Shown here one piece after another: positions 7,276 to 60,600 of a stretch of DNA of 64,000 nucleotides. A program made the translations under genes and the position numbers. Under the pieces are notes generated by a model that was not told the DNA's origin, ran no database searches, and saw nothing but the letters and a program-made list of their open reading frames with translations. Origin of the DNA: Edaphochlamys debaryana (lineage: Eukaryota > Chlorophyta > Chlorophyceae > Chlamydomonadales); contig JAEHOE010000075.1 in assembly GCA_016858145.1 (NCBI GenBank), positions 434,001 through 498,000 of the forward strand. The letters are read 5' to 3'. Every line of letters starts with the position of its first letter. The stretch's first letter is position 1.

Positions 7276-7304
7276 GTACTCGGAGAAGGCCTCCGAGCTC
7301 CCAA
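6953..7304. repeat. 75-bp in-frame tandem repeat array
   Basis: Three full 75-bp units (about 7048-7272) are nearly identical. A partial unit follows to 7304, and a 90-bp divergent unit lies at about 6958-7047. The period is a multiple of three and keeps the minus-strand frame open. Confidence 0.85.
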
Positions 7305-7305
7305 A

Positions 7306-7372
7306 CTATGGGGCTATGGGGCTATGCGGCTATGAGGCTTGGGGTCTATGGAGCTATGGGGATATGGGGCCA
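7306..7372. repeat. 8-bp tandem repeat (TATGGGGC-like)
   Basis: About eight imperfect copies of TATGGGGC directly abut the truncated end of the 75-bp array, so one simple array is replaced by another at a sharp boundary near 7305. Confidence 0.75.
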
Positions 7373-11898: not shown

Positions 11899-14800
11899 TC
11901 ATCGTGCGGGTGGGCTGCAAAGGCGGGGGCGGAGGGGGTCGGGGGCAAGGGGCGGGGGCATGATCTGAGTCTCTGTCGAGCTCCGCGCACCACGGGCCCC
12001 TCGCAGACACGGGGCCCTGCTGGTAGCTGCAGTCCGGCCAGGGCGCCTCCCGCGCATGCCCCGCGCCCGCCCCCCTACCCGCTGCGGGCCCCGGTCGCTC
12101 ACCCGGGTCCACTCCCGCTGCCGCTGCCGCCGCCGCTGGCTCGGGCCCCGGCCCCGGCTCCTCCGCTGCGTCCTGCGGCTCCGGGGGGGGCACCACGGCG
12201 GGGGCGATGACCACCCCGTCGTCCTGGGGGCGGGGGGGGGGGGGGGATGCGGGTGAGGGGACAAAGGGTGAGAGGAACGGCTTTGTGATGTGGAGCACAT
12301 GCTCCCGCAGCCTCCCCCCCCGCCTCCCGTATGTACCTTCTCCGGCAATCCCACCGACAACTACACGCTCTCCCGCTTATCACCTTCAAATACCCCCATT
12401 CCCCCCCCGCGCCCTCTGACCCCACCTGCGGGAAGAGCATCTTGACGATCCCCGGCGTCCGCAGCGGCCGCCTCCCGCTCATGCGGGGGTACACGTCCTC
12501 CAGGAAGTAGTACACGTGGCCTGGGGGGGAGAGGGGGGGAGCGAGGCTGGTGCGTGGTCGCGTTGCGCACGCCCCAAGCCCTTCCAATCCCATGCCTAGC
12601 ACGCCAACGGGTCCCAGTACTCCCTCCCCCCCTGCCCCTATCAACCCCTAAGCCTTCCCACCCGCGGCCATCCCCATGAGGGCCAGCCCTTCCCAACCCG
12701 GCCCCCTCCACCTCCCCTGTCTTCTTCCTGTTCTCCCCCCTCCCCCATTCCCCCTCCCCCCCCCCCCCCCCACCCGCCGCCATGCCCATGAGGTCCACCA
12801 CGGGCGAGGAGCCCAGCATGAGCGAGAAGGCCAGCAGCACCCAGGGCAGGTAGGGGGCGGTGAAGTTGAAGATGCCCAGGAAGGACAGGTTCACGTACTG
12901 GGGGGGGGGGGGTCAGGGGGCGGGGGGACAGGAGCGGTTGGGCGGGGGAGCGGTTTGCACTGGCAATGCTCGCGGAGCGTGGCAACATACCTCACATCTC
13001 AGCCCCTCGTAACCCTTGCTACCCCTCCCAGCCACCATCACCATGACCACCGCCACCCACACAACCAGCCCCCCCTGCCCGCCGCCGGGGCCAGTCCTTT
13101 GCTCTCGCCCTACCGCCACCGCCACCACCTTATTTGCCCCCACCTGGTGCCTCCGCCCCCAGACGTAGACCATCATGAAGGTCAGCGAGGAGCCCAGGAA
13201 CTGGATGTTGACGAAGGGCGCCAGCGCGGTCAGCAGCGTGCCGCCGAACAGCAGCATCCACAGGAAGTCGGCGGAGCGGCCGCGGAAGGAGCCTGGGGGG
13301 GGGGGAGAAGGGGGTGGTGGTGAGGGTGGTTGGGACTGAGCGGGGGATCGAGTCGCCAGTGCCATGGAAGCGAAGCTTGGTGGGGTGGGATGGGTTGGTG
13401 CGGGCTGCAGAGAGAGCGGTTCAAAGAGATGAGTTCCGTTGTTGTGCACCTGTCCTCCGCTCACACACACGCCCGCTCCCCCCTCACCCTCCTCCAGGGA
13501 CTTGCAGTACTTGATGAGGAAGAACATGTGGAACACAAAGTCCAGGCCTGGGGGGGAGGGGACGGGGCGGGGAAGGCGCTGAAGTGGAGCCGGGGCGGAG
13601 AGGCGCACGTGAGCGCAGCCGGAGCGCGTCCGCTTCTGCACCTGCTGCACCCCTACGCCCCGCTCCCCCCTTCCCGTCCCCACCCAGGTTCCCGAAGAAG
13701 AAGAAGTTGGTGACGAGGCGCCATAGCTCCAGCTTCTTGAACACCAGCTTGGCGTTGAAGTAGACGTTGAAGGGCGTGATGATCTTTTTGGGGGGGGAGG
13801 GGGGGGGAGCGGGGGCTCACTGAGGTCGCCAACGGGTGGACAGGGTGCAGGGTTTTAGCCTGAGGTGCTAAGCTGCTGGAGGGAGGGAGGATGGCCATTG
13901 GGCCTGGGAGGCAGGCGTGCAGGGTTGATCGACTGGGGTGACGGGGCTAGGCCCGGCAGCCCCCCCGCTGTCCGGACGGCAGGCCCCCCCTGCTCTGGCC
14001 GAAGCTGACGCGGTGGGGTGCAGAGGTGGGGTGCAGAGGTGTCCGCTCTCGCCCAGGGAGGCAGCCCGCCGTGGGGGTACGGGAGGGCCGGGACTGGACG
14101 CTCGCCCTCGCCCCAGCCCCCGGCCGAGGGAGGGAGGAGGCTCCCCTCTCTCCTGCCGCCCCCACGCCACGGCAATGGCCTTCGGTCCCCGCGTGTGCTC
14201 CAGCCGCGCCCCAGGCGCCAGCGCTGACTGCCACCAGAGCGCCGCCCGCTGCTCGGGACGCCGCCCTCCTCCATGGCCCCACCACCACCAGCGCCCGACC
14301 CCACGCCACGCCAGAGCAGCACGGCCCTGGGCAGCACGCATTTCGTTGCCCCAGGCGCACGGGCCATTCGGGACCGCGCGCAGGGGCACACGCTGGGCGC
14401 TGGCCCCCGCCCCCCCACGCTGTCGCGTGCTGCAGAAGCGCCCGGGGCCCGGACCCGGGGCCTCGCGAGGGCGTCAGGGCGTGGGGTCCCTGGGCCCACC
14501 ACCTTTCCGTAAGGCAGGGTGCATACAGCTCTGTCTGCTCCACCGAAGTCCTGTCCCAGGACAGAGCGTCTGAGACCTTCCTGTGCTAAGCCTCGGGCGC
14601 TTTACCATGGAACGGGGGAATGCCGCTCGGATAGAGCGTCTGGGGTCCCGTGAACGGTGAAGGGTGCCTCCCTCTGGGCGGGGCACCCAGTTGGCTCCAC
14701 CTGGCTGTGGGCCTTCCGCCCTGGGCTGCACCACCCGCAGCAAGCCCTGCTCGCTGGTGCAGCCCAGCCTCCCCGGAGGATGGATGGCCCTCGCGGACAG

Positions 14801-41237: not shown

Positions 41238-44200
41238 ATGGAAAAGGCAAGCCTCCCTCCTGGGTGGGAGGTCTTCGGCCCGCCATCCCAGGCCATCCTG
41301 CCCGGTGCCCACAGTACGCACTCCCTTCGTTCGTTCGTTTGTGCGCCACGTACCGGTACTCGTGCAGGCGGCCCCCGCCCCGCATCTGACCCCCTACGAG
41401 GTGCTGCAGCGCGGATCGGGGCCGGAACTGCAGGCCCTGCGGAGCGGTATGGCGCTGCGGCAGCTGGCGGGGGTGGATACGCCCCTCACGCCCCTGGAGC
41501 GGGCGGTGCAGCAGCGATCGGCCAAGCTGCTGCTGCAGTGGGAGGTCACCTGCGACGCCGCACTCCTCCAGGTATACATGCAGGCTGGGGCATTCAAGCA
41601 AGAGGGCCGTCTCTTTTTGAGGTAAGCACGGCCCCCGCGCATGCAGAGCAGGAGCAGTGGCCCAACCGCCGAGGCCTTTGCCGAGGGCTTTCATCGGGCC
41701 TACCTCCTGCCGCTGGAGGCCGAGGAGGCCGAGCGCTGGCCGGAGGAGCTGGCGGCCAACCAGCTCATCTACCTGTCCTTGTCAGCTGAGGAAGCCGTGC
41801 CCGGCATCGGGGTGAGTGGGAGTGGTGGGGGCGCAGGCTGCCCTGGGCGTGTCGACAAACAGCTGGAGGTGGGCGGGCCCCGGAGGACTGTAAGCCAACT
41901 GCTGTGTTCGCCGTTGGCAGGCTGCTCGCACACACGTGGGCGGCAGCTACGGCAGAGAGACCATGGTGGAAGGAAACTTCGACGTCGGTGGGTGGCCTGA
42001 GGGTGGCCGCGCATGAAGGAGTGCGTCTTGGTTATTGTCCTGACGCTCTGTCCCGCACGGCTTCCACTCCTCAGACCTCGTTGTCTTTGTCCGTGGAGTG
42101 ACCATGGATGAGTGGCTGCAGCCTGAGATGGGCAGGAAGGTCAGGCGCATGGTGAGCCCGTGTCTCTGTGGGGGGCGCGATTGCAGTGTATGGCACAATC
42201 CAGGGCGCTGTGATGGAGGCGGCCCCGCTCACCCCCAATCGCAGTTTGCGCGGGCGCTGCTCGACGTGGCCCCCGGGGAGTGGTGCGTGCAGCTGTCGGC
42301 TCCTGATGAGGAGGCAGAGGAGGAGGGGGGACCACGTTATGCTCTGCAGGTGCTGGAGAAGGCAGGGTCCGGTAGGGGGAAGGCTTTGACTGGAAAGGGC
42401 AGGGAGCCCGCCGTTCCGCTGGCTTCGCACTTTGACGTCCCACCGCTCACCCTCGCCGGTCCCAGCTGCGCCTGGGTGCTGTGGAGGCGGATGTCCTGCT
42501 GGTGCCAGACGTGGTGGAGGGTGGGTAGGGCGGGTGGGGTGGGTGGGACGTGTCGGGTAGCCCCTGGGGTGGGAGGGAGGGGGAAGCCCAACGCGCCCGC
42601 ACATGCCCTCCCGGCTGCCGCCGCCACCAGGCTCACGGCTCGTGAAGGAGTCACACGGCGCGCCCCGGGCTCGCCGGATACTGCTCTGGCTCCACACCTT
42701 CGTGGCGTTGGTCGTACGAGAGGCCCTTGAGGTGCGGCATGTCAAGGTTTCAGGGAAATGCAGGTAGAAGGGAGGGGGCTCTTGTCATCGACCGCATTAG
42801 CGCGTCTGCCGTCGGCCCGCCCTGCCCACAGTCCAAATACTCATCAACGCTTCGGCTCAGCGCATACGTGGCGCACTCTCTCGTGGAGGGGGTCGCGGAG
42901 GGCGTCGTCCACTCGTGCTTGAGAGCGCCACTGGACAGCCCGCAGCGTGGCGGTTGCGACCGCGTGAAGCAGTGGCGGCAGCGGCACCTCAATTGGCTCC
43001 GGCGGCAGCGGCTCGGGGCCCTGTGCGGAGTCTACCCGGTCAGTTCCTGAGTTGAACGCATGCATGGCTGGCAGCTCACCTGACTTGAAAGGACTGGTCT
43101 GCGGCCACTGCAGATGCCCGATGCTGCGCCCCACATCTCGCTGAGTGGTGAGCTCCTGCTGCGGGGGTCTGAAATCGACCTCAGGGGAAGGTCTGGTGCA
43201 AAGGGGGTTGGTCGGCTAAAGCATAACGCTAAAGCATAACGCACACACAATCCGCTGATACCCACTGCACTACCGAAACCCTGGGTTGCGGACGCCCGCG
43301 GGGGGCGCAGAAGGCACTCTGCTTCTACGCTGGGGCACTGCCTGGCGGCAAGGGGGTCCGCGCGTCAGTGACCGTCGCATTCTTATTTTAGACCGCAGAA
43401 TCCCTAAGCCCTCCTCCACGCCCCTCCCAGACCCGATCCTGAACGATCCGGACTGGGTCCTCGCCCAGCACACGGCCCTGATGCGGGAAATGTACGACAA
43501 CCCTGGCGGCGCGTCGTACTGCCGGCTGCGGGAGCGGGCTAATTCCACCGCCCTCACGACGTTCATGCGGGAGCAGCCGGAGGAGGTTCGGGCGGTGGCG
43601 AGGGGGCTCAAGGTGACTGGGTGTCTGGATGGGAGGTTCCCGCTGTGGGCGGAGGAAGTGTCTAGTGCGCGATGGCCTCATCTGCCCGACCTCCCGACCT
43701 CTCCTGCCTTCATCCCTCCCCCCCCAGGCCTGGCGTGACGGCCTCGAGGTAGACGCCGTCCCCAACTGCGGCATCGGCAGTGTGGCGCTGGAGGTGCTGG
43801 CGCTGGCGGCACACCAGCAGCTGCAGGGGCAGGGGCCCCAGGAGGGCAGGTGAGCGGGTGGGACAGGGGTGTCAGCGCTCGCTATGCTGGTTGGCAGCGG
43901 CGCAGCTGACCGGGCCACGCCGCCGTATCCCTCTGCCCGACCCGCGCAGCCCCGCGCTCTACCAGGTGCGGCTGTTCCAGGCGGCTCTGAGTCTGCTGGT
44001 GGAGGCGGTGGAGGGGGGGCGGCGGGTGGTGACGGTGGACGCGGGGGGCTGGGGCCCACCGCCCCCACGCAGCCCCCTCGACTACCAGCACTGCTGGGCG
44101 GCTGACCCCGTCAAGATCATCCACCCCATCGACCCCACCTGCAACCTTGCGCACGTGAGGAGGGTGGGGCATGCATGCTCACAGTAGCGCGTCTGCAAGG

Positions 44201-44524
44201 GCACCGGTGCCGGTCCGGCACTTGCGCGTCCGTCAGTCTGCACAGCGGGGCGTCCCACACCACCCCGCGCGTGACCACACGTCCATGCCTTGTCACGACC
44301 CGTCCTCCCCGCAGCAAAGCCCCGACAAGCCCACGGCGCAGTGGCAGGCGGTGGCGGCGGAGGCCAAGGAGCTGCTGGACACGTTCCGGTCCGGCACGCT
44401 GGGGGAGGTGCTGGGCGTCCTAGCACCGGCCATGCAGCTGCAGCGGGAGCGGGCTGCCGCGGGCCTGGAGCGGGTGGAGCTGGGCCCGCCGCCCGTCCTC
44501 CTAAGCGTCGGCGACTCAAGGTGA
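41238..44524 (+). CDS. OAS-like nucleotidyltransferase, copy A
   Basis: Fourteen exons: 41238-41246 (ATG GAA AAG before a GC donor), 41368-41571, 41647-41811, 41921-41987, 42075-42151, 42245-42349, 42466-42520, 42631-42731, 42832-43038, 43114-43147, 43431-43612, 43728-43849, 43950-44154 and 44315-44524. The nucleotidyltransferase core shows VGGSYGRETMVEGNFDVDLV (GS motif plus DxD) and the third Asp in VEADVLLVPD. The OAS1_C-like part has VPNCGIGSVALEVL and KIIHPIDPTCNLAH, matching the DP.DPT stretch of animal OAS. About 580 aa with exons 8-10, or about 466 without them. Those three exons (342 nt) form an in-frame cassette absent from copies B and C. Animal relatives make 2'-5' oligoadenylate or cyclic dinucleotides on sensing dsRNA or DNA; the algal product and ligand are unknown. 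Exons 1 and 2 are the least certain. Confidence 0.85.
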
Positions 44525-44875
44525 GGTGGGGCATGGGAGCGGGTGCAGTTCACTGCCTGGGGAAGGCGTCCCTCATTTTGACCTCCTCGGCAGGAGGGGC
44601 CGACTGGTCGGAAACCTTGCGCGAATCATTTGGGACTGGAGGCGGCAATTCTGCGAAATCTTCGGCCACCCGCGGCAGCAGGGGAGGCTGATCCGAAGCT
44701 GCAAGTGGCGGCGGATGGGGGCCGTGCTCCGGTGGGCTGCTCTGGACCTGGCCCTGTTTACAGTCCTGAGGCCCCTTGCGGGAACCTTCCCCTGAGTTCA
44801 CGCTCGGAACACCTGGCGCCACGGGTTAAGCCACCAGCGGCCGCAGGAGCACGCAGGAGCGGCTGTGGCCAGCCA

Positions 44876-45041
44876 CCCCCAGGTGGTGCTGTCCTCCGAG
44901 GCCGTCCACGCCAAGCACCCAGGAGTGCTGGGGGACGTGATGGGCGAGCTGGGCCCGGCCATGCGGCTGCAGTGGGAGAGGGCCGCCGCCGCCCTCGAGC
45001 GGCTGGCGCCTGTGCCCGCACCTGTACCGTGCCGCACGTGA
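44876..45041 (+). pseudogene. Chimeric relic: USP last-exon start fused to OAS C-terminal exon
   Basis: Positions 44876-44918 repeat 40013-40055 of the USP-like gene exactly, including the end of the pyrimidine tract, the AG acceptor and codons VVLSSEAVHAKH. The frame then continues into VLGDVMGELGPAMRLQWERA, which is the OAS C-terminal motif (compare VLGVLAPAMQLQRERA in copy A), and stops at TGA 45039-45041. No upstream OAS exons accompany it. Its relation to the 3' end of copy A (356 bases upstream) is unclear; it could in principle act as an alternative last exon. Confidence 0.75.
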
Positions 45042-46410
45042 TGGGCCGGGTGCCGGGCTCCGCCCCGCCGCGCTGGTCATGACCAGTCCCAATGATTGCC
45101 GTCCCTGCGGTTGGCATCAAACCGGCAGGTGGGCCCTGGGGGCTGAGGCGCATGGCAGGCGGATAGGGCATTTGGGACACGGGATTCATAGATTCATTTA
45201 CTTTTATAGCCGGCGTGCGTGACACCGGTGCCAGCACGCACGCGGAATGGGGGTGGAGGATGGAGGATGCGAGCTTGGCGAGGTTCTCCATGCTCCTCCT
45301 CCATCCCTTACGGGCCCGTTTTCGGCCCCATCTTGTTTTGCGGGCCGGTCTGGGGCCCCATCCTGGCCCTGAGCGCCAAGGGGGGTAGCGCCAAGGGCAT
45401 GCTCTTAAGTGGATCGGCCAGATGCCACGCAGCCGGTGTACGCAGGGGCATGGATAGGAGGGTGTTGCGGTGTGCTGGCCTGGGGGCACCTACAGTAGGT
45501 AGGCTGGTGGGCAGACGGGCATAGTGTGCGCAGGGACCTAGTGCTGTACTTCTTGCGGCAGAGTTGGCCGACTGCGCTGGTGCAGCATCAGCAGAGCGAA
45601 GGGAGGCGTGCTGTAGTCTGGCGTGCTGTGCGCGGGGTGGGGGGCACTTACGGCAGAGTTGACAGGCTGTGTTGGTGCAGTACCAGTATCAGCGGAGCGA
45701 AGGGGGGTGGGCCTAGTCCGGCGTGCTTTGCGAGGGGCCTCGCGGGAGTGCGATCTGTTCACGGCGTCAAGCCGGTCAAGGGTGACGCGGCAAAAGTGCC
45801 TTCTCAGCGTACCGGTATGGTTAGGCAGGACGTGACATCTGTGCGAGATGCCGAGGCGGGCAGGAGACCTCGCAGGAGACGGCTTGCGCACGGGTGGTGT
45901 ATGGGCGGCAGGCGGGACAACAAACGAGCGAGCAGGATGGGAGTGTCGCTTGGCGTGCAGGTGGAGCGGCACGGTGGGTGGGGGAGTTGGCGCGCGGGAG
46001 GGTTGCTGTAACGAGCCGCGGACCCATCGATGATGAGACGCGGCCATGTCCCCGCCATCCTCTCTATCAGCTGTCCAGCTCTGCAGCCGCCGCTGACCCC
46101 CTGTCCCCCTGTAAGCCGCAGCCAATTTTTCCCTTCTGTCAGCGTATGCTCCTCTCTGTCTCCAGCTGGGCGTGCATCGGCAGCAGCATCGCGGGGGTGT
46201 TCGGGATCGCGCCCTGGTTTGGCACGGTTGACCTGCCAAGGAGCAATGCCAAAGTAGAACCTTCATACATTGTAGTGTGTACCATACTCTTTTTGTTGAA
46301 GTGCGAGACACTATTGGTCCCCGAACGCTGCGGGTCGATCGCGATGCTGCATTTCCGATAGCGCCTTTCGCTGAAGCGGGCAAGTAGTGCCTGCAGACCA
46401 AAGACTTTCT
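45042..46410. other. Intergenic before HIT-TsaE-TsaD; imperfect ~98-bp tandem duplication
   Basis: No gene recognised. About 45548-45645 and 45646-45745 are diverged tandem copies (shared GGCAGAGTTG..., GCGAAGGG...GTGCTG). The last 300 bases are AT-richer and probably contain the promoter. Confidence 0.5.
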
Positions 46411-49400
46411 ATGGAGGGCGGGGAGCCTCGCGCCAAGCGGCAAAAGATGGCGCCTGGCGCGAGCAATGCGGCGGCGGCATCCGTGCCTGTGACGGCGTAC
46501 CGCTACAACGCGCAGAACGTGTTCCAGCTGTTGCTTCAGGGCGGCGGTCTGGAGACGCCGCTCATCTTCGACGCGCAGCACACGTTCGCGGCGCTGGACA
46601 AGTACCCACTCGTGCGCGGCCATGCGCTGCTCATCGTCAAGCACCCGGCAGCCACGCTCCTAGACGAGCTGCCCCCGGCCGTGGCCCAGGCCGCCTTCAT
46701 GGACCTTCAGGCCCTGAGCCGGGCGGTGCAGGTGGCCACGGGCTGCGCGGGGCTGCGCGTGGTGCAGGCCAGCGGCCCCGCCGCGGGCCAGACCGTGCCC
46801 CAGCTCCACTTCCACGTCCTCCCCGTCTACGCCCCCGACCCCTCCGCCCCCTCCTCCCCCACTCCCTCCACCGCCCCCGCCTCCGAACCCACCCCCGCCT
46901 CCACCTCCGCACCCTCCTCAGCCCCAGCCCCCGCAACGGCCCCTGCCGAACGCGAGCCGCTGTCCTCGGCCGAGGCGGGTCCGCTGCTGGCGGCGCTCCG
47001 CAACGCTCTGCCCGAGGCGCTCAGCCCCGGTTACACCGTGTGGGCGGCCTGCGAGTCGGACATGGAGGCCCTGGGCTGGGCGCTGGCGGGGGCCTGCAGC
47101 CGCCCGGGCAGCCTGCTGGCGCTCAGCGGGCAGCTGGGGGCGGGCAAGAGCACCATCTGCCGGGGCTTCGTGCGCGCCTTCACGCGCGACCCCGGGCTCG
47201 AGGTGCCCTCCCCCACCTTCCTGCTGTGCCTGTCGTACCGGGACGACACGGCGTACGAGCGCCGTACGGCCCCGGAGCCCGCGGAGGGGGGGCAGGCCGC
47301 CGCCACCGAGCCGGGGGCTGCTGCCGGTGCGCCCTCCGCCCCCTCCAGCTCCTCCGCACCCTCCAGCTCTGCACCTTCCGAATCCGCCCCCGCCACCTCC
47401 TCCGCACCCTCCACCTCCGCCCCCCCCTCCCGTGCCTCCTGCGTGCACCACGTGGACCCCTACCGCCTGGGCTCCAAGGCGGACAAGGTGGCGGGGCTGG
47501 TGGACTGGGGGCAGGCGCTGGGGGCCGAGGTGTGCCTGGTGGAGTGGCCGGACCGCATGCCGGCGGCCGTCATGGCGGGGGCGGGGGCGGGGCTGGCGCT
47601 GGACGTGAGCGGCATGGGGGCGCAGGTGAGGGGGGGTCGGGGCGGGCGGGGGGGAGGGAGGGGGAAGGGGCTTGGAAAAGGAGGAGGGAGAGGGCTTCGG
47701 GAAGGAGAAAGTGGGCCCGCTGGGGCGGGGTGACTGGGGATAGGTGGACTTGTCCGGCCCCCAAATGTTCCAAGTTGAGCTCCTCGCCATGTGCCATGCG
47801 ACCGCGCACCACGTGACTGCTTGAGACGGACGTGGTAGCAAGCTAGCAATCCTCCGCCCCGTCTCCTCTGCGACTCCCCGCAGGCCTCCGGGCGGCTGGT
47901 GAGCATCACCCTTGTGGGGGACCGCTTCAAGCCGGCCCCGCCCAAGCCCGCGCGGGCGGGCAAGGCCGGGAAGCAGGGGGCAGAGGGGCAGGGCGGGGAG
48001 CAGCAGCAGCCGGCGGCGGCAGCGGCAGCGGCGCCCGACCCGCCGGCGCCCCTGCCCCCCGCTGACGCCGCCGCTGTGGCCGCCACCGCCGCCGCCTACG
48101 AGTCCGTCCTGCGGGACTGGCGGCGCCGCTACCCCTCCTCCCTGCCGCCGGCTGACGTGGCCTGGCGGGGCGGCGCCGACGGTGCGGGCTCCAGCGCCGC
48201 CGTCGGGCCCAACCACCCCGGCGGCGCCGCTGGCGGCGCCGGCGGCACCATCAACGCCGCCGCCGCCGCCGCACTTGCTTCTGGCGACGCCAGCCGCTGG
48301 GTGGTTCTGGGCATTGAGAGCTCCTGCGACGACACGGCGGCGGCGGTGGTGCGGGGGGACGGCACGGTGCTGGCACACACCATCGCCAGCCAGGTGCGGT
48401 GGGGGCGGGGAAGGGGGTGGGGATGAGAAGGATGGAGGTGGGGTGGCCAGAGGTGGGGAGGGTGGGAGGGGAGTCGAGGCGCGGGCGGGTATCTGGGCAG
48501 GGCGTAGGGGGGCACAGAGGAGCGGGAGGGGGGCAACCTTGCACTCTGTCATCGCGACTCTGCCACCCGCCTGGATGTGCGACATGAGCATGCACATCAC
48601 ACCACTGCGCTGCACCGCTGAAGGCACCTCCGCCAAAGGATACAACATGATTAGTCTTTCCGATAGCTCGCCAAATACCCTTTGGCACTACGGGCATGCG
48701 GACACAACGAAACGCTGATGGCCGGAACGCCTTGCCTGACCCCAGGCCCTTTAGCCTGACACTCCGCGGCTTGCATTTAACGTGCACCTTGCACCCAACC
48801 CCAAGGGACCCCCGCCAAATGATACAACATGATTAGTCTTTCCGATAGCTCGCCAAATACCCTTTGGCGTAATGGGCATGCGGACACAACGAAACGCTGA
48901 TGGCCGGAACGCCTTGCCTGACCCCAGGCCCTTTAGCCTGACACTCCGCGGCTTGCATTTAACGTGCACCTTGCACCCAACCCCAAGGGACCCCCGCCAA
49001 ATGATACAACATGATTAGTCTTTCCGATAGCTCGCCAAATACCCTTTGGCACTACGGGCATGCGGACACAACGAAACGCTGATGGCCGGAACGCCTTGCC
49101 TGACCCCAGGCCCTTTAGCCTGACACTCCGCGGCTTGCATTTAACGTGCACCTTGCACCCAACCCCAAGGGACCCCCGCCAAATGATACAACATGATTAG
49201 TCTTTCCGATAGCTCGCCAAATACCCTTTGGCATAATGGGCATGCGGACACAACGAAACGCTGATGGCCGGAACGCCTTGCCTGACCCCAGGCCCTTTAG
49301 CCTGACACTCCGCGGCTTGCATTTAACGTGCACCTTGCACCCAACCCCAAGGGACCCCCGCCAAATGATACAACATGATTAGTCTTTCCGATAGCTCGCC

Positions 49401-52400
49401 AAATACCCTTTGGCACTACGGGCATGCGGACACAACGAAACGCTGATGGCCGGAACGCCTTGCCTGACCCCAGGCCCTTTAGCCTGACACTCCGCGGCTT
49501 GCATTTAACGTGCACCTTGCACCCAACCCCAAGGGACCCCCGCCAAATGATACAACATGATTAGTCTTTCCGATAGCTCGCCAAATACCCTTTGGCACTA
49601 CGGGCATGCGGACACAACGAAACGCTGATGGCCGGAACGCCTTGCCTGACCCCAGGCCCTTTAGCCTGACACTCCGCGGCTTGCATTTAACGTGCACCTT
49701 GCACCCAACCCCAAGGGACTCCCGCCAAATGATACAACATGATTAGTCTTTCCGATAGCTCGCCAAATACCCTTTGGCACTACGGGCATGCGGACACAAC
49801 GAAACGCTGATGGCCGAGACACCGTTCGAACTTCACACCCTCGCACGCACTCACGGCGCACGCACTCCTGTCGCACTCTTGCTTGTTGGGCCCCCACCTG
49901 CGACCCTTACACAGCGCTCCTCCTCCCCTCCCTTCCCTCGCCGTCTCCCCCCAGACGGGCCTCCACGAGCAGTTTGGCGGTGTGAAGCCCGACGTGGCCC
50001 GGCAGGCGCACGCGGCGGCCATCCAGGTGGGGGCAGGGAGGGGCGCCTGCGCCGGGGGCACCGCTATGGGCAGAGCAAGCAGGGCAGGGCCTGCAGCGGA
50101 GGCGCCCCTCCCACTGCCCTCGAGGGGGTGCGGGGGTGGTCGGCCTGGGCTGCTGGGTGGATGGTCAGCCTCAGCGCAATACCCCAGCCCCCAACCCGCC
50201 CGTCCGGAACCCCCTGCTCCACCCCGCCTGGTCCCTCCCCCCTCCCACCCCAGTCCACGGTGGACTCTGCGCTGGCGGCTGCGGGGGTGGCCCCGGAGGA
50301 CCTCACGGCGGTGGCGGTGACGGCGGGGCCGGGGCTGGCGCTGTGCCTGCAGGTGGGGGTGGGGGGGGGCTCTGGGAGGAGGGGGACAGGCGGTCAAGAG
50401 GGGCTCAGAGTCAGAGGGGGCAGGGGCGTTTGGCGAGAGCTGACATGCGGTCAAGACCGCGTTCACCCCCGTCGCCTACCTCTCCGACCGCCCCTCCCCC
50501 CTCCAGGTGGGTGTGCAGCACGGCCTCTCCCTGGCCGCCCGCCACGGGCTCCCCTTCGTGCCCGTGCACCACATGGAGGCGCACGCGCTCATGGCCCGGC
50601 TGCCGGGGGTCAACGAGACGCCCATGCAGGTGGGGGGGGGGGGGCTGGGAGGGCGGGAGGGCAGCGCGAGGGGCGCCCAGGCCGTCGGTGAGACGGGGCC
50701 TCGGGGGGAGGATGCGTCGGACGAATGCTGGCGGGAGCCTTGGCCCCGCCGGCGCACCCCAGGCGACGTACTCCCGCTAAGCTTCAAACCCTTCCCCTCC
50801 CCCCCCCAGTTCCCCTGCCTGCTGCTGCTGGTGTCGGGGGGCCACAACATGCTGGTGGTGTGCGAGGGCGTGGGGCGGCACCGCATCCTGGGCACCACCC
50901 TGGACGACAGCGTGGGGGAGGCATTCGACAAGATCGCGCGGCTGGCGGGCATCGGGGCCATACCGGGTGGGTGAGGGCTTGGGGGAGAGGGAGCGCTGGC
51001 AGCGATTGTAAAGGAACGTATGGACAGGTTGAAGCGGTTAAAGCACTTTCCCCAGGACTCATCCCCCCTCTCACAAACCTCGGTCTCCCTCCTCCTACCC
51101 CCCCAGGCGGCCCCCACCTGGAGCGCCTGGCCGCCTCCGCCCCCCCGGGCGCCCACACGCGCTACCCCCTCACCATCCCCCTGGCCAACGGGGCGCAGAA
51201 GGACAGCTGCAACTTCTCCTTCTCGGGGCTAAAGACGCAGGCGCGTGGGGAGAGGGGGGGGGGTCAGGGGGGCCCGCACGGAGACATGAGCGCAACTCGG
51301 GGGAAGGGTGCGGCCTTGAGTCTTACAGCCTCACGCTGGAGACCTGACTTGGGAATCTCTCCTCTACCCATCCCACTCGGGCCCTTCACCCGCCGTCCTC
51401 TCGCACCACCATCCCTCCCCCTGCAGGTGGCCACCCTGATTGCTCAGAAGCGGCGGGAGCTGGGTCTGCCCGAGCCGCCCCCGCCGCCCGGCATCGCCGC
51501 GGCCAACGCAGCGGCGGCGGCGGCCGCGAGGGCCGAGGCGGGGGCAGGCGAGGACGAGGCGGAGGCAGGGGCGGATGGGGCGGGGGAGGCGGCAGCAGCA
51601 GCTGCCAAGGATGCGGAGGCGGAGGGGGCGGCGGAGGACCCCGAGGCTGCCGCCCAGCGGGCTGCCGCCGAGGCCGCCTTCACGTCCGCGTGTGCCGACA
51701 TGGCGGCCTCCTTCCAGCGCACCGCCGTCAGGTTCCTGCAGCAGCGCACGCGCAGGTGGGGGGGGGGTGCTGGGGTGACGTGGGGCAGCGGTCGGGAGAG
51801 GACCATAGACTTGCGAAGAGCGGACCGGGGGAGGAAGGGGGCCGGCTGTGGACTTGGGCAGAGGGCCTGCGTATGGCGGCACGGTCGGGCCTCGGAGCGG
51901 TAGGGGTTCCTCGCCGGCTGGCCGAGTCGGGTAGCCCTGTCCCCAGCTGTCGGGTCTTCAGATCTAACTCTAGGTTCCGCCCCGCCACTGTCCACCCCCC
52001 ACCGCAGGGCGCTGCAGTGGCTGCGGGACGACGCGGCGCAGCAGGCGGGGGGTGCCTGGGCCTCGGGGGCTGAGGGCGCCGCACCCACCGCCTCTTCCGC
52101 CTCCCACCCGCCCGGCTTCGTTCGCCAGCTGGTGGTGGCGGGGGGCGTGGCGGCCAACGGGGCGGTGCGGGCGGGGCTGGCGGAGGTGGCGGCGGAGTTC
52201 GGACTGCCCTGCGTCTACCCGCCCACCAAGTGAGCACGGCGCACATGGGTGGAGGGGACGGAAAGGAGAGGGGAAGTGCAATGGTGCCGTGGTCCTCTCC
52301 ATCGTGCATCCTGCTTGCCATCCCCACCACAAGATCCCCACGTTAACCTCCCCGGCCCCCCCCCTCCCTTCCCTCCCCCTCCCCTGCAGGTACTGCACCG

Positions 52401-52597
52401 ACAACGGGCTCATGGTGGCATGGACGGGGGTGGAGCGCCTGCGCCTGGGCCTGGCGCAGCAGCCGCCGCCGCCCCGCGCCGCCGAGGGCGCCGCGCTGGA
52501 GGCGCACGTGCAGGTGCTGCCGCGCTGGCCCATCGGGCCCATGGACCCCCGCAGCATGGCCTCCAAGGGCCGCACGCACATCAAGATCCTGCACTGA
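46411..52597 (+). CDS. HIT-TsaE-TsaD fusion protein (t6A tRNA modification)
   Basis: Ten exons: 46411-47625, 47884-48393, 49955-50026, 50254-50352, 50507-50629, 50810-50966, 51107-51240, 51427-51755, 52008-52229 and 52390-52597; about 1,020 aa, phases agree. Residues ~30-140: HIT-like domain ([28 protein letters not shown], with Gln for the first His). Residues ~190-395: TsaE ATPase with P-loop GQLGAGKST (~240-248), [19 protein letters not shown] and LVEWPDRMP; a Ser/Ala/Pro linker is inserted. Residues ~543-end: bacterial/organellar-type TsaD with [21 protein letters not shown] metal ligands, [48 protein letters not shown] and YCTDNGLM, plus Ala-rich inserts. TsaD with TsaB/TsaE transfers threonylcarbamoyl to tRNA A37. 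Exons 1-2, which hold HIT, TsaE and the first TsaD motif, are joined by one short intron. Exon 7 appears to use a GC donor. Start is the first ATG in frame. An organelle location is expected from the TsaD type, but no clear presequence is visible. Confidence 0.92.
48627..49816. repeat. 182-bp satellite array inside TsaD intron 2
   Basis: Six full units start at 48647, 48829, 49011, 49193, 49375 and 49557; a partial one at 49739 ends near 49816. Units are almost identical, differing mainly at one site: CACTACGGG in copies 1, 3, 5, 6 and 7, CGTAATGGG in copy 2, CATAATGGG in copy 4. The array makes the intron 1,561 bases against 80-260 for its neighbours. Repeated 72-codon minus-strand ORFs are a by-product of the repeat. 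Confidence 0.97.
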
Positions 52598-53462
52598 GCA
52601 TGGGGCGGGTGGGGGAAGGGGAGAGGGGGAGGGCCGGGGGCAAGGGGGCAGGCGGGCGCGGCATCGGGCAGCTGCGTATGGTCGGGCTAGCAGTCTAGCG
52701 CGCACGGTGCAGAGGCGTTCCTGTTGACGGAGGCAGGCAGTCGGTGCGCAGTGTGAAGCTGCACGGCAATTCAGGCGCGAGGTCCCGTGTTAGTCACAGC
52801 AACGGCGGGCTTGCACAGGTGTAAGCCGGTCAGAGCTGACGATGGGGCGCAGGGTAGAGTGAGGGTGTCTTGATAGCGGCGCGGGCAGGTGTGGAGCAGC
52901 GGCGTGTGGTTACCTGCATGGGTCTTCCCCGCTGAGGATCACGTGAGCTGTAACGCGCCTGGCATGACGTGCCTGGTACCGGTGCTGGTTACACCAGCTT
53001 CCTGCACTGTGTCCCCACTCGCTCGATGCCGCTAGCGCTGGTTGTCAACATTCCCCCGCATGACCCACCGAACGTGCATGCGGCTCAGGGCCTCATCGGG
53101 CTATCGAGACCTGTCTACTGATTCTTGCCAGCCTGACGCCGTACATCGCCAATCGCCCATCACACAGCAAGAGCCATAAGGAGACACCAGGAGACCGGGC
53201 CCGGGCCCGGGACCAAGGGACCAAAATCAAGAAGTGCACGGGACGAAGAAGTGCCGGCGCGAGCCCAGGGGGAGCCGTCCAGGCCACGATACACATCCAT
53301 GGGCGAGGGTTGCGCCGAGTCTACGCCCAGCAACATTGGCGCAACATCGCCGACGATGCACGAAACTGCCTCCCCCGCCTCCCACCCCCCTGCACTCCTG
53401 CTTGCAGTGGCCGATGCAGGCCAAGTACGGTATCCCGACCACGCCTGGCCACGCCGCTGAGC
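52598..53462. other. Convergent intergenic region TsaD / OAS-B
   Basis: 865 bases, no gene. Parts (around 52980-53010, TGGTTACACCAGCTTCCTGC) resemble 57549-57568 in the equivalent interval of the second TsaD/OAS pair. Confidence 0.5.
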
Positions 53463-55859
53463 TCAGCGTCGGAAAGCGGTGGTGCCCCAACCGTCAGGGC
53501 TGGTTAGTACGAGCCGCAGCCTCCGGTCCCAAGCAGCGCGCTCGCGGTCCCGCTGCAGCTGCATGGCCGGGCCCAGCCTGCCCAGGACCTCCCCCAGCGT
53601 GCCGGTCCGGAACGTGTCGAGCAGCTCCTTGGCCTCCGCCGCCACCGCCTGCCACTGCGCGGTGGGCTTGTCGGGGCGTTGCTGCGGGGAGGACGGGTCG
53701 TAACAAGGCATGGACGTGTGGTCACCCGCGGGGTGGTGTGGGACGCCCCGCTGTGCAGACTGACGGACGCGTAAGTGCCGGACCGGCACCGGTGCCCTTG
53801 CAGACGCGCTACTGAGAGCATGCACGCCCCACCCTCCTCACGTGCGCAAGGTTGCAGGTGGGGTCGATGGGGTGGATGATCTTGACGGGGTCAGCCGCCC
53901 AGCAGTGCTGGTAGTCGAGGGGGCTGCGCGGAGAGCCCCAGGTCCCCGCGTCCACCGTGACCACCCGCCCCTCCTCCACCGCCTCCACCAGCAGACTCAG
54001 GGCCGCCTGAAACAGCCGCGCCTGATAGACCTTGGGGCTGCGCGGGCGGGGGAAGAGGGATCATGCAAGCCCGCGCAGCAAGGGCTGCCGCTGCCGCCTG
54101 CGCACCTGTCCTTCCGACTGTACCCCTGCCATTTTTGCTGCCATCGCAGCTGCTGGTGTGCCGCCAGCGCCAGCACCTCCAGCGCCACACTGCCGATGCC
54201 GCAGTTGGGGACGGTGCTCACATCCAGACCGTCGTGCCAGGTCTGGGGGGCAAGCGGATGAGCAAACCAGCCTGGCCAGCCCAGACGGTCCACAGGGTCC
54301 CACCTTGAGCGCGCGGGTTACCAGGCGCGGGCTGAAGGGTTGCTCCCGCACAAACTGTGTGAACGCCACTGAGTCCGCCCGCCCCCGCAGCACGGAGTGC
54401 CGTGCGCCTCCCGGGTTGCCTTACACGGGCACCATGAGGGCCTCGTGCTGCCGGGACATCCAGTCATAGCGGCCTGTAGGTTTGCAAAGGGGAGCGACGG
54501 GCGCGGAAGGAAGCCGGATGGGGCCATGTGAACGGACGCTGGGGAAGCTGCCCAGCCGTGCGTACGATGAACTGTATGGTGTACAGCTCACGAGGCCCTT
54601 CCCGCCGAAGCCCCCGCCCACCCTCCACCACGTTCGGCAGCAGGAGGAGGTCCACCTCGACGGGCATCTTTCCGAGGGTCAACTGGAGGACGGGCGAGGT
54701 GAATGGCTTGAACTTCATGACGCTCAGCATTCAGCTGCACGCACCCGCCGCAGCTTCACCAGGCCTCAGCGGCGGACCCGGATTTAGCCCCCACCCCCAC
54801 CTGCATGGCATAGCGGTAGTGCGCCTTCTCCGAGATTTGCACGTCCCAATCCAGCGCTCGCGCCTCGAGCGCTGTCCGGACCTGTAGGCAGGGTGCGCTG
54901 CCGCTAGATAGGTGCGGGCGTGCCCCAGCCCCGACAGTTTTGCCCGACCCCCTGCGACCCTACCCTGCGCCGCAGCTTGATACCCACGCCCCGGTCGTGC
55001 CAGTCCCCAAGACTGAGCGCTCGGCCGTCCATCTCATGGACGAAGAAGATCAAGTCTAGGGGCGGATAGGAGCGAAGGGTGCCGCAAATTTCATGCTAGC
55101 TTCAGAGGTTACTTCTGGGTCCCAGCACCCGCTCACCAACGTCGGAGCTGTAAGGTTCGGAGCATTTGTCCCCCGGCCAGCCTTATGTACCTGAGACACC
55201 TGCGCGCCGTGGAGATGTCATACGGTACCACCGTGGCCCCGTCCCAAGGCCCCGCCCCTTGACTCCGCCCCCTGGACTTGCATAGCCTGAGTAGCCCCAT
55301 CCCGCGCACCGTTACGCCGGGCAGCTGCTGAACCAGGTCGTGCAGCCTTTGCACAGCCTCCGCGGTCGTGTCCATCGCCACGAGCGGCTGGATGAAGGAC
55401 ACGTTGAAGGCGCCAGCAAACGCCTTCCGCTCGGACTCAGACCCCCTCCACGTAAGCTGCGGTCAAGTGACGGACCAAGCTCTTCCCGGCTGCAAAGACG
55501 CTGGGGTACGTCGCCCGGGCCACTCCGCTGCCCGGCGTCAGGGGCGTCCCCTCACCAATCCGCCATACATACGTCCCTGGCAACCACGCGCAGCGCCGGT
55601 CACATTTACCCCCATCCCCAATACTGTCCCTACCTGTTCCATGGGTTTAGACCGAACAGAGAGCGGGGGTTTCTCGTTGAAGCCTCCGTCCCCGTCGGAC
55701 GATGGCGCCGCCACCGCGGCGGCCAGTGCGGGCGCTGGGGGCCGCCAGGCGGCCCCAGGGGGCCCCCGCAGCCTGATTGCGGCGGAAGCCCGGGCCAGAG
55801 GGGCCTTGGCGCCCCCCGGCCGCTGCCAAAAACTGACCAGCATGGCTGCTAGGGGCACG
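53463..55859 (-). pseudogene. OAS-like nucleotidyltransferase, copy B (pseudogene)
   Basis: Homologous exons: 55456-55310, 55199-55135, 55055-54964, 54881-54801, 54682-54622, 54473-54304, 54242 to ~54131, 54037-53842 and 53681-53463. Preserved: LVQQLPGV, DGRALSLGDWHDR, VEVDLLLLPNVVEG, VPNCGIGSVALEVL and KIIHPIDPTCNLAH. Broken: the exon that should carry GGSYGRGT...FDV reads HKAGRGTN, so the GS motif is gone and the frame at the DxD is shifted. Codon 54423-54421 is TAA where copy C has TAC (VYGNPGG). The donor after the 54242 exon is mutated (GGCAGGGGTA). A possible first exon is ATG GAA CAG before GTAGGG near 55642, or a longer ORF from 55858. The 5' exons resemble copy C; the 3' exons and last intron resemble copy A. 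Confidence 0.85.
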
Positions 55860-56627
55860 CCTGTAGCGGCGGATATCGAGACGCTGAGGTGCGTTACGGT
55901 ACGGTTCCGCGACTTGGGCGGCTCGAGCCGCGCACCTGTTCTCTGTTGTCAAGTCACCAGCCACAACCACACGACCAGCACGTCGACTGCCGGTCGACAG
56001 CTCAGAGGGAAGCAGCGGGCGGCCAGGGAAGCAACTAGGGTCGAACTCTGCCCGGCAGCGTCCCACGTTGAATCGCCAGCATATCAACGGTTGGTGTTAT
56101 TGGTGTGCAGGGTAAGAGCGATAGCAGTTGGCAGGGTTCAGAGAGCGGTAGAAGCTGGCAAAAAGCTCGCCGACAGCTAGTCACAAAATGCAGGAGGAAG
56201 CGACCTACGTGACATCAGTAACAACAACAGCAACGGGTTAATATGCAATAACAACGATAGTGTGCCCCCTCGATTGGGCTCCATCCAGCGCAGGGCCCGC
56301 ACGAACCCGTCACTCGGGGCGAGTCACCCGCCCGTCCCCGCTCGAGTACGCCCTTACGCGGGTTCCCCCGCAGGGTCCCCTGCTCGTGCCGACGCAAGTT
56401 GCCAGCATATATTTGGCCATTGTAAAATGAGTTGGCCCCCATAACGCCTCCCGCAAATCCCATACCCATCCGCCTTACACCTCCTTTGCATTCAGGGTTA
56501 TGGTACGCAGGTTACTGCACATTGAGACTCCGGATGGGGCAAGCCAACACTGAGGGGCACAAAGGCGCATGGCGTCCCAGTGCTGCGGTCCACACGGTAA
56601 CGACGGTAGCAGAGCGTAACGGCCGCC
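55860..56627. other. Intergenic, no gene recognised
   Basis: Balanced base composition. Separates pseudogene B from the OAS/TsaD relic junction. Confidence 0.5.
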
Positions 56628-56760
56628 TCACGGTGCCTCTGGCAGGCCAAACAGCCGCCGTGCCGCACTGGTCCGGGCCCTGGACAGCTTCAGGGCCGGC
56701 GCCAGCTCCGCCATCACCTCCTCCAGCGTGCCGCCGTCAAAGGCCCCCAGCTGCTTTGCC
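56628..56760 (-). pseudogene. OAS-like C-terminal exon relic
   Basis: Minus-strand frame reads AFDGGTLEEVMAELAPALKL, then SRARTSAARRLF and a stop at 56630-56628. It aligns with the C-terminal exon of copies A and B (GTLGEVL..L.PAMQLQR). Only this exon is present; it ends where the plus-strand TsaD-like sequence begins. Confidence 0.75.
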
Positions 56761-56764
56761 TGCC

Positions 56765-57318
56765 CCGCCCGGCTTCGTTCGCCAGCTGGTGGCCGGGCCC
56801 GGGGGGCGTGGCGGCCAACGGGGCGGTGCGGGCGGGGCTGGCGGAGGTGGCGGCGGAGTTCGGACTGCCCTGCGTCTACCCCCCCATCAAGTGAGCACGC
56901 AGTGCGCATGGGGCCGATGGGGGAAACGGGCGGGAGAGGGGCGATACGATGGGGTACTGGCTGCTGACGGTGCGGAGCGCCCGCATGACCTCCAGCGCAG
57001 AGGGCGGGGCGGCGCGGCCCCCTCGTGTATCGACCTTACCCACCAAGCTCATCCCTCCTTACCACTCCTCTTCCTCCCCCCTCCCTCTCCCTTCCCCCCC
57101 CCTGCCGGTACTGCACCGACAACGGGCTCATGGTGGCGTGGACGGGGGTGGAGCGCCTGCGCCTGGGCCTGGCGCAGCAGCAGCAGCCGCCGCCCCGCGC
57201 CGCCGAGGGCCCCGCGCTGGAGGCGCACGTGCAGGTGCTGCCGCGCTGGCCCATCGGGCCCATGGACCCCCGCAGCATGGCCTCCAAGGGCCGCACGCAC
57301 ACCAAGATCCTGCACTGA
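56765..57318 (+). pseudogene. TsaD 3'-end duplicate (last two exons), frameshifted
   Basis: Matches 52111-52597 of the HIT-TsaE-TsaD gene: FVRQLV..., the [12 protein letters not shown] region, the intron, then [20 protein letters not shown] to the end with one extra Gln. CCGGGCCCGG replaces six bases after the FVRQLV codons, a net +4 frameshift. The second-exon acceptor has changed from CAG to CCG. No start and no upstream TsaD exons. A non-functional segmental duplicate. Confidence 0.88.
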
Positions 57319-58208
57319 GCATGTATGGAGGGGAGGGGGAGGCCAGGGAGGCGCAGAAGGGCGCGTGCGTGGTAGCGTCTTGCGTACCGGTATGGCTGTA
57401 CGGAGGCCGCGGCTCGGGCTTGGGTCGGCTCGCTGCAGGCCCTGCAGCGTCTGATGTGTGGCTGCGTGGAGAGCTGTTGGACGAGGTGCGGAGACCCCCC
57501 CGCTCACCCCGCTGCGGGGCATGTGATGAGGACTGCAACGCATATCTGGTTACATCAACTTGCTGCACGCACGGTGTGCACACACGCCGAATGCCCCCTC
57601 GAGGAGCTCGAGGATCAGCTCGGGGCGGCGCAGGCGGTCCCCAGCATGCCGAAATACCAGTATCCGGACAGAGCCTGGACTCGGTGCCCCGTGCCTCGGC
57701 CCCGGCCCTCAATGTCGCCTCAATGCTCTCTCTCTCTCGATGCCCCGTCAGCGGTACCGATATCAACCGCGCCCATTCTGCCGTGCAAACCCGTGCGGAG
57801 CACAGTTTGGGCCCTGAGCTCATCAGCTTGCAGGAGCGCTCAAGGCTAAGATCCCCTTGCATGGCACCACAAGCATGAGAATTGTGCACTTCACTCACGA
57901 TCGACGACGAGGCAAAGTGCGCATTCGAATGGAACATTTGTGCCCTCCCACGGTCATACGCCCCGACCCATACTGTACATAAAGACCTGTGCCGTGCCTC
58001 ACCTCAGCCACCCTCATGGTCACAACATCCAACATATCTCGAGACAGATCGCCCTACGATGGGCTAGCTCACGCTCGTACCAAGCTTCCCTCTACAACGC
58101 TTCGGACTCACCCGGCCGACAGCTCACATCCGACTTGATAGTCACAACATTCCACATATCTCCTTATAGGTCACCCGACGATGGGCTAGCTCACGTTCGT
58201 ACCACCCT
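57319..58208. other. Convergent intergenic region TsaD relic / OAS-C
   Basis: 890 bases, nearly the same length as the interval between real TsaD and OAS-B. Contains an imperfect repeat of ACAACAT(C)CA(C)ATATCTC...GGGCTAGCTCACG around 58021-58080 and 58142-58200. Confidence 0.5.
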
Positions 58209-60600
58209 TCAGAGCCCAAACAGGATGTCGTTCATGAAGTCCCCCCCGGGCGCTCTGGGCCCCAGCATCCGCTCCCGCACGTCCTGCACAAGGCTCCGCT
58301 GCAGCAGAATGGCGGGAGTGAGCATGGCCAGCACATCCCGCAGCGTGCCGTCCTCGAACTCCGCCAGCAGCGCCTTAGCCTCTACCGCGACCGCCTGCCA
58401 CTTGGCCGTGGGCTTGTCACGCCGTTGCTGCATGGGGCGGACGTTGGTGGGAGCGTGAGGGCTTGCCAGGGTAGACGTACCGAGCAGCGAGGAAAGGCAC
58501 TGTAAAACTGCTGCGGAGCTTACGTGCGCGACGTTGCATGTGGGGTCGATGGGGTGGATGATCTTGACCGGGTCCTCGCCCTCCTCCGACACCCAGCAGT
58601 GCCGGTGCCGCAGGATGCTGTGGGGCGGGCCCCAGTCCCCCGCATCCACCGTGACCACCCGCCCCCCCTCCACCGCCGCAACGAGTAGACGCAGGGCCTC
58701 CACGAACAGCCGCACCTGGTAAACCCGGTCGCTGTGGGGGGGAGCATACAGAAGAGAATGTGTGGAGCTGCGGGGAGGCGAGCGAGGCAGCGCCGATTTT
58801 CATGAAACACACCTGCCCTTTGGCCCTTGGCTTTGCAGCTCCTGGTGTGCTGCTAGCACCAGCACCTCCAGCGCCACACTGCCAATGCCGCAGTTGGGTA
58901 CGGCTCCCGCATCCAGCCCGTCGCGCCAGGCCTGGTGGGGGAGGTGGGGAAGAGAAGGGCGGGTAATCAGCTGCACGCTGGAGGCCGATGCAACCCTGCA
59001 CGCCGGATACAGCGAGTATAACCATGACTTGTGTTGGGGGGACGGCCGGTCAGTCTCGTCACCATGACCAGGGCAGGTCGCCCCACCTTGAGCGCGCGGG
59101 CCGCCAGGCGCACGTTTGGGTCCTGCCCACGAACGAACTCAGTGAACGCCCACGAGTCAGCTCGTCCCCGCAGCACCGAGTGCCGTACGCCTCCCGGGTT
59201 GCCGTACACGGACTTCACGAGCACGTCGTGCTGCCGGCGCACCCAGTTGTTGGGGCCTGAGGGACGGACCGAAGGCGGCGGCAGCTGAGGGCATCTATCC
59301 CGCAAGGAGATGGAGGGGGTCGTCCCCGTGCGTCCCCGATTCAATTCCCTCTTAGCTCCTCCCGCGCAGCCACCCACCCTTCGCGACGTCCGGCAGCAGC
59401 AGGAGGTCCACCTTGACCTCCATCTCCCCGAGCGTCAGCTGGAGGGAAGGTGAAGGGAGGCAACCAGCTTGCCCCTGCTGTGCCTTACACCTTCAGCCCC
59501 AGCACTAGCCCAGAGCCCCTTGCCCTACCCGCATGGCGTAGCGGTAGTGCCCCGTCTCAGAGATCTGCGCCTTCCACTCCGGAGCCCGCGCCTGCAGCGC
59601 TTCCCGGACCTGAAGGGAGCGTATGCAGAGGCTTGGGCGGATGAAGCCCAGACCAGAGCCTCGGCCTCTACGACCTGCACTGTTGACCACCCCTTCGGCC
59701 CCACCCTGCGCCGCAGCTCGTTGCCCACGCGGGGGTCGTTGAGCCAGTCCTCCAGGGTGAGCGCCCGGCCGTCCAACTCGAGCACGAAGATCAGGAGGTC
59801 TGAAAGGAGTCGTGATGTGGAAAAGGATCCAGATGTCAGTCAGATGATGGCGGGGAGCGGGAGGTTTCAAGTTGCCCTCCGGCACCCAGAAGGTCCGCAC
59901 CCACCGACGTCGAAGTTCCCCGCCACCATGGTCCCTCGGCCGTAGCTGCCGCCCTTGTGGGCGCGGGACACCTGCGGCCATGTCCGCGGGCGTCACCTCA
60001 AGCCCGCACCCACCACACCCGAAGCCCCTCACCCTCGTCTCGAGTTCCCCCTTTCCGCCGCCATCTAAACCTCCCGCTCTGCGCCCCGCTCTCTACAGCC
60101 CCCAGCACGGACCTTGACTCCGGGCAGCTGCTGCACCAGGGAGTACAGCCGGTCCACCGCCTTCCCCGCCGGCTCCGTCTCCACCACCTCGGCGCTCAGC
60201 TGCTTGGTGAAGTTCTCCCAGAAGCCATCTGCAAACACTCGTCGCTCGGAAGCAGACCCGCTCCACGTGCTCTACGTGCGGGGGCACACCGGGTCAGGCC
60301 CAACTGTCCCAACCCGGGGCCGAGGCGGGCTTGCAGGGCGATTGCAGCCGGGGCACTGACCTGCCCGGCGCCAGGGCTCAACAGGCTCTCGGGAAAGTTT
60401 GAGGTTTTCGCAGCGTACTGCTGGTAAGCGCGCCGCACTAGCCTGGAGGGCTGCTTCTTGTAGCGCCCCTCCGCCTCCGCGAAGCCCAGCACACGCGCGA
60501 CCAGGCTCCGGCCCCGCCCCCTGGCGCGTGGGGTTACGGGCGCAGGCACCGGCCGGCCCGGCACCGCCTGCTGCGGCCGCAGTCCGGAGCGGCCCAGCAT
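58209..60600 (-). CDS. OAS-like nucleotidyltransferase, copy C
   Basis: Ten exons in agreeing phase: 60600-60361, 60271-60113, 59971-59905, 59799-59705, 59609-59529, 59438-59378, 59256-59087, 58931-58813, 58731-58524 and 58427-58209; about 472 aa with no internal stop. Residues 1-80 are Arg/Pro-rich and basic (MLGRSGLRPQQAVPG..., YKKQPSRLVRRAYQQ) and unrelated to copy A; they could be a targeting peptide or nucleic-acid contact. Catalytic core: HKGGSYGRGTMVAGNFDVDL (GS and DxD) and MEVKVDLLLLPD (third Asp). The C-terminal OAS-type domain has GNPGGVRHSVLRGRADSW, AVPNCGIGSVALEVLVL, RVVTVDAGDWGP and KIIHPIDPTCNVAH. All three predicted metal ligands are present, so it is probably active. Product and activator are unknown. 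Confidence 0.9.

Follow-up and report, generated by a model that had tools for sequence, protein, structure and literature searches.

The 2'-5' oligoadenylate synthetases (OAS) of animals and the cGAS/DncV-like nucleotidyltransferases (CD-NTases) of bacteria connect anti-phage defence to animal innate immunity, and OAS-like homologues have been reported in 8 of 12 eukaryotic supergroups by Culbertson and Levin in 2023 (PMC10732462, in the part available). A 64,000-nucleotide stretch of the unicellular green alga Edaphochlamys debaryana (contig JAEHOE010000075.1, positions 434,001 to 498,000; "the window" below) carries three genes of this kind: A and C, which look intact, and B, a broken mosaic copy, all of them OAS/CD-NTase-like. 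On balance, it is probable that the intact ones encode nucleotidyltransferases activated by nucleic acid, which would make an oligonucleotide messenger and serve in defence, likely of a cell-autonomous kind.

The published E. debaryana assembly comprises 142.14 Mb in 527 contigs, with 67.1% GC, and the genome paper, in the part available, discusses other immunity-like expansions, those of SRCR and CTL proteins (PMC8226300); the words 'oligoadenylate' and 'nucleotidyltransferase' do not occur in its main text. Another immune-type gene in these algae is a relative of the Mx-like antiviral GTPases, reported as a fungal acquisition and named for both E. debaryana and Chlamydomonas reinhardtii (PMC11789081, as excerpted). 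Among the titles, abstract openings and excerpts covered from the open-licence literature, no description of the algal OAS-like family was found.

Two intact-looking genes and a mosaic copy

An earlier note on this DNA had proposed two intact-looking OAS-like genes, a pseudogene and two C-terminal relics. Gene models of A and C indeed give open proteins of 10 exons each, with GT-AG borders at every internal intron (nine of them in C), and the model of C is identical over 472/472 amino acids to the public E. debaryana protein HYH03_012293. For A, the model matches HYH03_012290, as judged by eye, from the annotated start (Met, 41449) as far as the last exon, where the public protein adds a further exon at ~44829-45041. 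This exon, which had been taken for a relic, is thus spliced into the public gene, while the other relic holds as an orphan exon with a weak profile match (Table 1). No in-frame connection was obtained for the ATG at 41238 that had been proposed as the start of A, and 41449 is where the public protein begins; the placement of the 5' end is uncertain. The family motifs are all present in the spliced models: GGSYGR..FDVD in both (GGSYGRETMVEGNFDVDLVVF in A, GGSYGRGTMVAGNFDVDLLIF in C), a third Asp in EADVLLVPD of A and VDLLLLPD of C, and KIIHPIDPTCN in both.

Gene B is broken, as had been claimed: its catalytic exon (55137-55199) has lost the GS motif and counts 63 bases against 67 in C, an in-frame stop lies inside the 54304-54473 exon, and the public model HYH03_012292 begins only at the third-Asp exon. 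It is not, on the other hand, a merely decayed copy, but a mosaic of A and C. Over profile positions 25-228 it is closer to C (amino acid identity 0.51-0.70, against 0.28-0.54 to A), while over positions 229-385 it is closer to A (0.78-0.91, against 0.51-0.77 to C). Since the identities switch only once, at about profile position 228, which is an exon boundary, simple decay from one parent was rejected. The A-like tract includes introns (Table 1), and gene conversion or recombination with A is its likely origin.

A second rearrangement is recorded between B and C. The 3' end of the neighbouring TsaD gene has been copied beside C in the same convergent layout in which the parent gene faces B; therefore, B and C likely stem from a segmental duplication, in which this 3' end would have been carried along. 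We infer that the conversion between A and B came after it. The copy set would thus have kept changing by local duplication, probable A-B gene conversion and decay, and such changing copy sets are common among defence genes.

Table 1. Positions of the OAS-like genes, their parts and the adjoining features, numbered from the first letter of the window
Feature	Position	Strand	Remarks
Gene A (HYH03_012290), OAS-like nucleotidyltransferase	41449..45041	+	own exon model and public protein
Gene A exons 1-5, own model	41368 (annotated Met 41449)-41571, 41647-41811, 41921-41987, 42075-42151, 42245-42349	+	
Gene A exons 6-10, own model	42466-42520, 43431-43612, 43728-43849, 43950-44154, 44315-44524	+	
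Gene A catalytic exons (two, spanned)	41921..42151	+	GGSYGRETMVEGNFDV / DLVVFV, GS motif and D-x-D
Gene A third-Asp strand	42466..42520	+	LRLGAVEADVLLVPD
Gene A OAS1_C-like exon	43950..44154	+	terminal KIIHPIDPTCNLAH
Duplicate C-terminal exon, last exon of A in public protein	~44829-45041	+	ends approximate
HIT/TsaE-domain gene between A and B, TsaD exons downstream	46408..52597	+	outside the OAS-like family; 3' end duplicated
Gene B, a broken OAS-like copy (partly HYH03_012292)	53494..55438	-	5' part C-like, 3' part A-like
Gene B A-like tract	53545..54261	-	85% identity to A 43710-44451 over 751 alignment columns, introns included
Orphan C-terminal exon relic	56655-56777	-	weak profile match, 7.7 bits
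Duplicated 3' end of TsaD gene	56764..57340	+	87% to 52107-52273, 90% to 52323-52616
Gene C (HYH03_012293, 472 aa)	58209..60600	-	own exon model and public protein
Gene C exons 1-5	60361-60600, 60113-60271, 59905-59971, 59705-59799, 59529-59609	-	
Gene C exons 6-10	59378-59438, 59087-59256, 58813-58931, 58524-58731, 58209-58427	-	
Gene C catalytic exons (two, spanned)	59705..59971	-	GGSYGRGTMVAGNFDV / DLLIFV; protein residues Asp154 and Asp156
Gene C third-Asp strand VDLLLLPD	59378..59438	-	Asp225
Gene C OAS1_C-like exon	58524..58731	-	terminal KIIHPIDPTCNVAH

As regards the neighbours, the HIT and TsaE domains lie within a single open frame (46408-47616) that is followed by the TsaD exons, so that the plus-strand region 46408-52597 may be a HIT-TsaE-TsaD fusion gene belonging to the pathway for the tRNA modification N6-threonylcarbamoyladenosine (t6A); an apparent intron of its TsaD part holds 6.6 copies of a 182-bp unit with 98% matches (48621-49816). 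Elsewhere in the window there are a 75-bp tandem repeat (7027-7307; 3.7 copies, 99% matches) and a Der1-like domain on the minus strand (12916-13854; Pfam DER1, E 1.6e-13).

The family in the genome and in related algae

Combined searches of the E. debaryana assembly (141.9 Mb in 502 contigs, whose labels are used as locus names) gave at least 17 loci with a C-terminal exon bearing an HPIDPTCN-type stretch, a count which is a lower bound: A, B, C, C75:250 kb, three on C142, two on C71, one each on C1, C161 and C162, and five on C33. The GS motif, the D-x-D and the third Asp are complete in 12 of these 17 by profile-aligned exons, a figure for which only part of the splice junctions was modelled, with two junctions taken from the public proteins P0003 and P0005 and with the C33a exons joined across ~5 kb; the incomplete or degenerate loci are B, C71a, C161, C33c and C33e. 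A multicopy family with intact and broken copies is therefore confirmed, to which recombination, absent from the earlier note, has to be added. The family extends well past the window, and its confinement to this alga is not borne out, as it has relatives in four other volvocine/Chlamydomonas species: the 14 members in the public protein database are seven from E. debaryana, three from Gonium pectorale, two from C. incerta and one each from Tetrabaena socialis and C. schloesseri.

A maximum-likelihood tree was built with 16 of the 17 loci (C161 being too short) and the seven proteins of other species. It places the C33/C162 copies together with Gonium 5g417 at an ultrafast bootstrap of 94. Local E. 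debaryana expansions comprise the trio on C142 (100), the pair on C71 (100) and A plus C75:250 kb (99); support at several of the deeper nodes is weak (46-68). In two of the protein searches, scoring was limited to the candidates with the most shared words (7,992 and 7,988), while a third scored all 38; among the candidates scored, neither a relative outside the volvocine/Chlamydomonas algae nor one in C. reinhardtii was found, which shows no absence in either case. Viral and bacterial sequences gave 50 and 320 pattern matches, respectively, to the first family alignment, none of which was confirmed by tblastn, and therefore no donor was found. Regarding the N-termini, those of P0001 (residues 1-40), P0004 (1-75) and P0011 (1-50) are rich in Arg, Ala and Pro and almost devoid of acidic residues. 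They resemble organelle transit peptides, a feature which a GC-rich coding bias could mimic, and some members may be targeted to the chloroplast or the mitochondrion.

Enzyme identity and possible roles

The family profile, searched against the sequences of the PDB, matched OAS1 best and above chance (E 4.7e-10), with the bacterial CdnC as best non-animal match (E 2.5e-5), and both OAS1 and OAS2 outscored every bacterial enzyme; the OAS/CD-NTase-like identity first proposed from motifs is thereby upheld. The predicted structure has the two-lobed fold of the OAS type, with OAS as best PDB match; an initial model of poor quality (pLDDT, the predicted local distance difference test, 60.8) was replaced, its fold searches having likewise ranked OAS on top. 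Should this identity be right, nucleic acid (RNA or DNA) would switch the intact enzymes on, a two-metal nucleotidyl transfer is predicted at Asp154, Asp156 and Asp225 of gene C, and nucleoside triphosphates would be joined into a short oligonucleotide second messenger, the candidates being linear 2'-5' oligoadenylate and a cyclic nucleotide. The messenger would then act through an effector other than RNase L, with antiviral and probably cell-autonomous defence as the outcome.

Several results weigh against this reading. The Pfam OAS1_C model reached 13.3 bits in C and 15.1 in A, under its gathering cut-off of 19.9, and matched 6 of the 13 members scanned at E ≤1 (best 0.0046); NTP_transf_2 also stayed under its cut-off for A and C. 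The NCBIfam CBASS (cyclic oligonucleotide-based antiphage signalling system) cyclase model gave P0004, the member with the best E-value, 32.1 bits against a cut-off of 200, while the archaeal CCA enzyme model matched 6/13 members (best 1.9e-4). Fold comparison puts poly(A) polymerase (20.9) as well as CdnC (20.5) close to OAS, with some OAS entries ranking lower (OAS3 20.8, OAS2 20.1, pig OAS1 1px5 19.5). At the position of human OAS1 Lys199, which we take to be a contact to double-stranded RNA, 12 of 16 E. debaryana copies are basic, but only three of the seven proteins from other species, with Asp in C. incerta. At the position of Tyr230, presumably the nucleotide-stacking residue, the 13 aligned members have Val, Ala, Gly or Phe, in no case Tyr, and the product or base choice may therefore differ. 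Finally, the ratio of nonsynonymous to synonymous substitutions (dN/dS) points to weak constraint, at 0.64 for the pair A-C and 0.68 for A-B. It was obtained from profile-aligned codons by simple Nei-Gojobori counting, which had no neutral control and carries some noise from intron edges. In the nine closest pairs it is 0.34-0.51, and across the 32 closest pairs listed 0.34-0.81; the copies thus appear to be under constraint, but a weak one.

These figures have to be considered together with the alternatives. RNA-tailing enzymes (terminal nucleotidyltransferases, TENT; poly(A) polymerases; CCA-type enzymes) could resemble OAS merely through the common fold, and the fold comparison separates OAS from poly(A) polymerase only modestly, leaving room for that reading; there was also a weak match to Pfam MTPAP-like in 1/13 members (0.0034). 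By sequence, nevertheless, none of the 16 PDB matches at E ≤10 carried the name of a poly(A) polymerase, a TENT or a CCA-type enzyme (the entry being simply 'Nucleotidyltransferase' in three cases), nor did any of the 11 obtained with the first profile; both the K-x-W helix and the stretch P-x-DPT-x-N align, in order, with OAS1. Poly(A) polymerase was accordingly rejected on sequence, where the better tailing-enzyme match named beforehand as a refutation did not appear, and a tailing function is very unlikely. A catalytically capable family with a role outside immunity, in RNA metabolism, stress, mating or development, whose copies duplicate neutrally, would agree with the five incomplete or degenerate loci and with dN/dS values as high as 0.81; against it speak the catalytic triad, retained in the 12 other loci, and dN/dS values under 1 throughout the 32 closest pairs listed, as does the rapid turnover with gene conversion, which is uncommon among housekeeping enzymes. 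Such a role is rather unlikely.

To the same degree unlikely, although it partly overlaps with the preferred reading, is the production of cyclic di- or trinucleotides in the manner of the clade C enzyme CdnC, acting through a CBASS-like effector. CdnC is the closest non-animal enzyme by sequence and close on fold, CBASS cyclase profiles match up to 8/13 members, and the OAS superfamily has been placed inside bacterial clade C (PMC10732462, in the part available), while the higher rank of OAS1 and OAS2 argues the other way; the likeness to CBASS cyclases, as judged from profiles, is at superfamily level only. Searches with SAVED and STING models gave no match in the E. debaryana genome, but their controls matched nowhere either, so that no absence is shown. 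The same holds for the genome searches with Mab-21 and OAS1_C. An RNase L-like gene, the lack of which would also suit a cyclic product, was not found by an exon-by-exon KEN search whose control matched in 0/14 genomes, and a second, divergent KEN gene is therefore possible. The single KEN-domain locus matched genome-wide (C144:233.4 kb, within C144:225000-234999, L044) adjoins kinase exons with HRDLKPHN and KLSDMGLSK and is, by eye, a plant-type IRE1. A pathway of 2'-5' oligoadenylate (2-5A) and RNase L is therefore doubtful in E. debaryana.

Defence by an OAS-like nucleotidyltransferase family thus remains the preferred reading, antiviral nucleotide alarm signalling being a possible function as far as the sequences suggest. 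The immune role ascribed to A and C in the earlier note is one that we too infer, and its interpretation as a whole is partly supported. More tentatively still, volvocine algae may hold a fast-changing arsenal of OAS-like nucleic-acid sensors, diversified through gene conversion and local duplication in the manner of resistance-gene clusters, with a messenger other than 2-5A, in view of the replaced nucleotide-stacking Tyr, and an effector other than RNase L, which would amount to a third, plant-lineage version of OAS/CBASS.

Comparison with known systems

In the available part of the survey mentioned above (PMC10732462), sequences without Pfam Mab21, OAS1-C or SMODS at E <1e-3 were dropped. 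None of the 13 members scanned reaches that value: OAS1_C stops at the figure given above, SMODS at 0.092, and Mab-21 is absent from the nine Pfam families listed at E ≤1. The family sits below the domain threshold of that survey, which may therefore have dropped it. In this way, a multicopy, recombining family in unicellular green algae emerges as a plant-lineage candidate for defence by nucleotide second messengers, and a testable one, since the algae are culturable. If the RNase L partner is truly absent, OAS-like synthesis would be uncoupled from RNase L, and in that case one could ask directly which product and effector the superfamily originally had.

Among described systems, the bacterial CdnC of CBASS differs from the algal family in that the latter falls far below the NCBIfam CBASS cut-offs and has introns, nine in gene C. 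In the related alga C. reinhardtii, Cre15.g641050 bears the label of a 2'-5' oligoadenylate synthetase and the term 'defense response to virus' (PMC5508029, in the part available), a bare annotation known here by its label alone. From animal OAS (OAS1, OAS2, OAS3 and OASL) the family differs in falling under the OAS1_C cut-off, in the Tyr230 and, partly, the Lys199 positions, and in that no RNase L-like partner was found by the search described. The two are alike in the two-lobed fold (predicted here), the GS motif with D-x-D, the third Asp, the K-x-W helix and the P-x-DPT-x-N stretch. OAS-like proteins of eukaryotes are thus a kind already known, to which the divergent and recombining family of these algae adds a new member.

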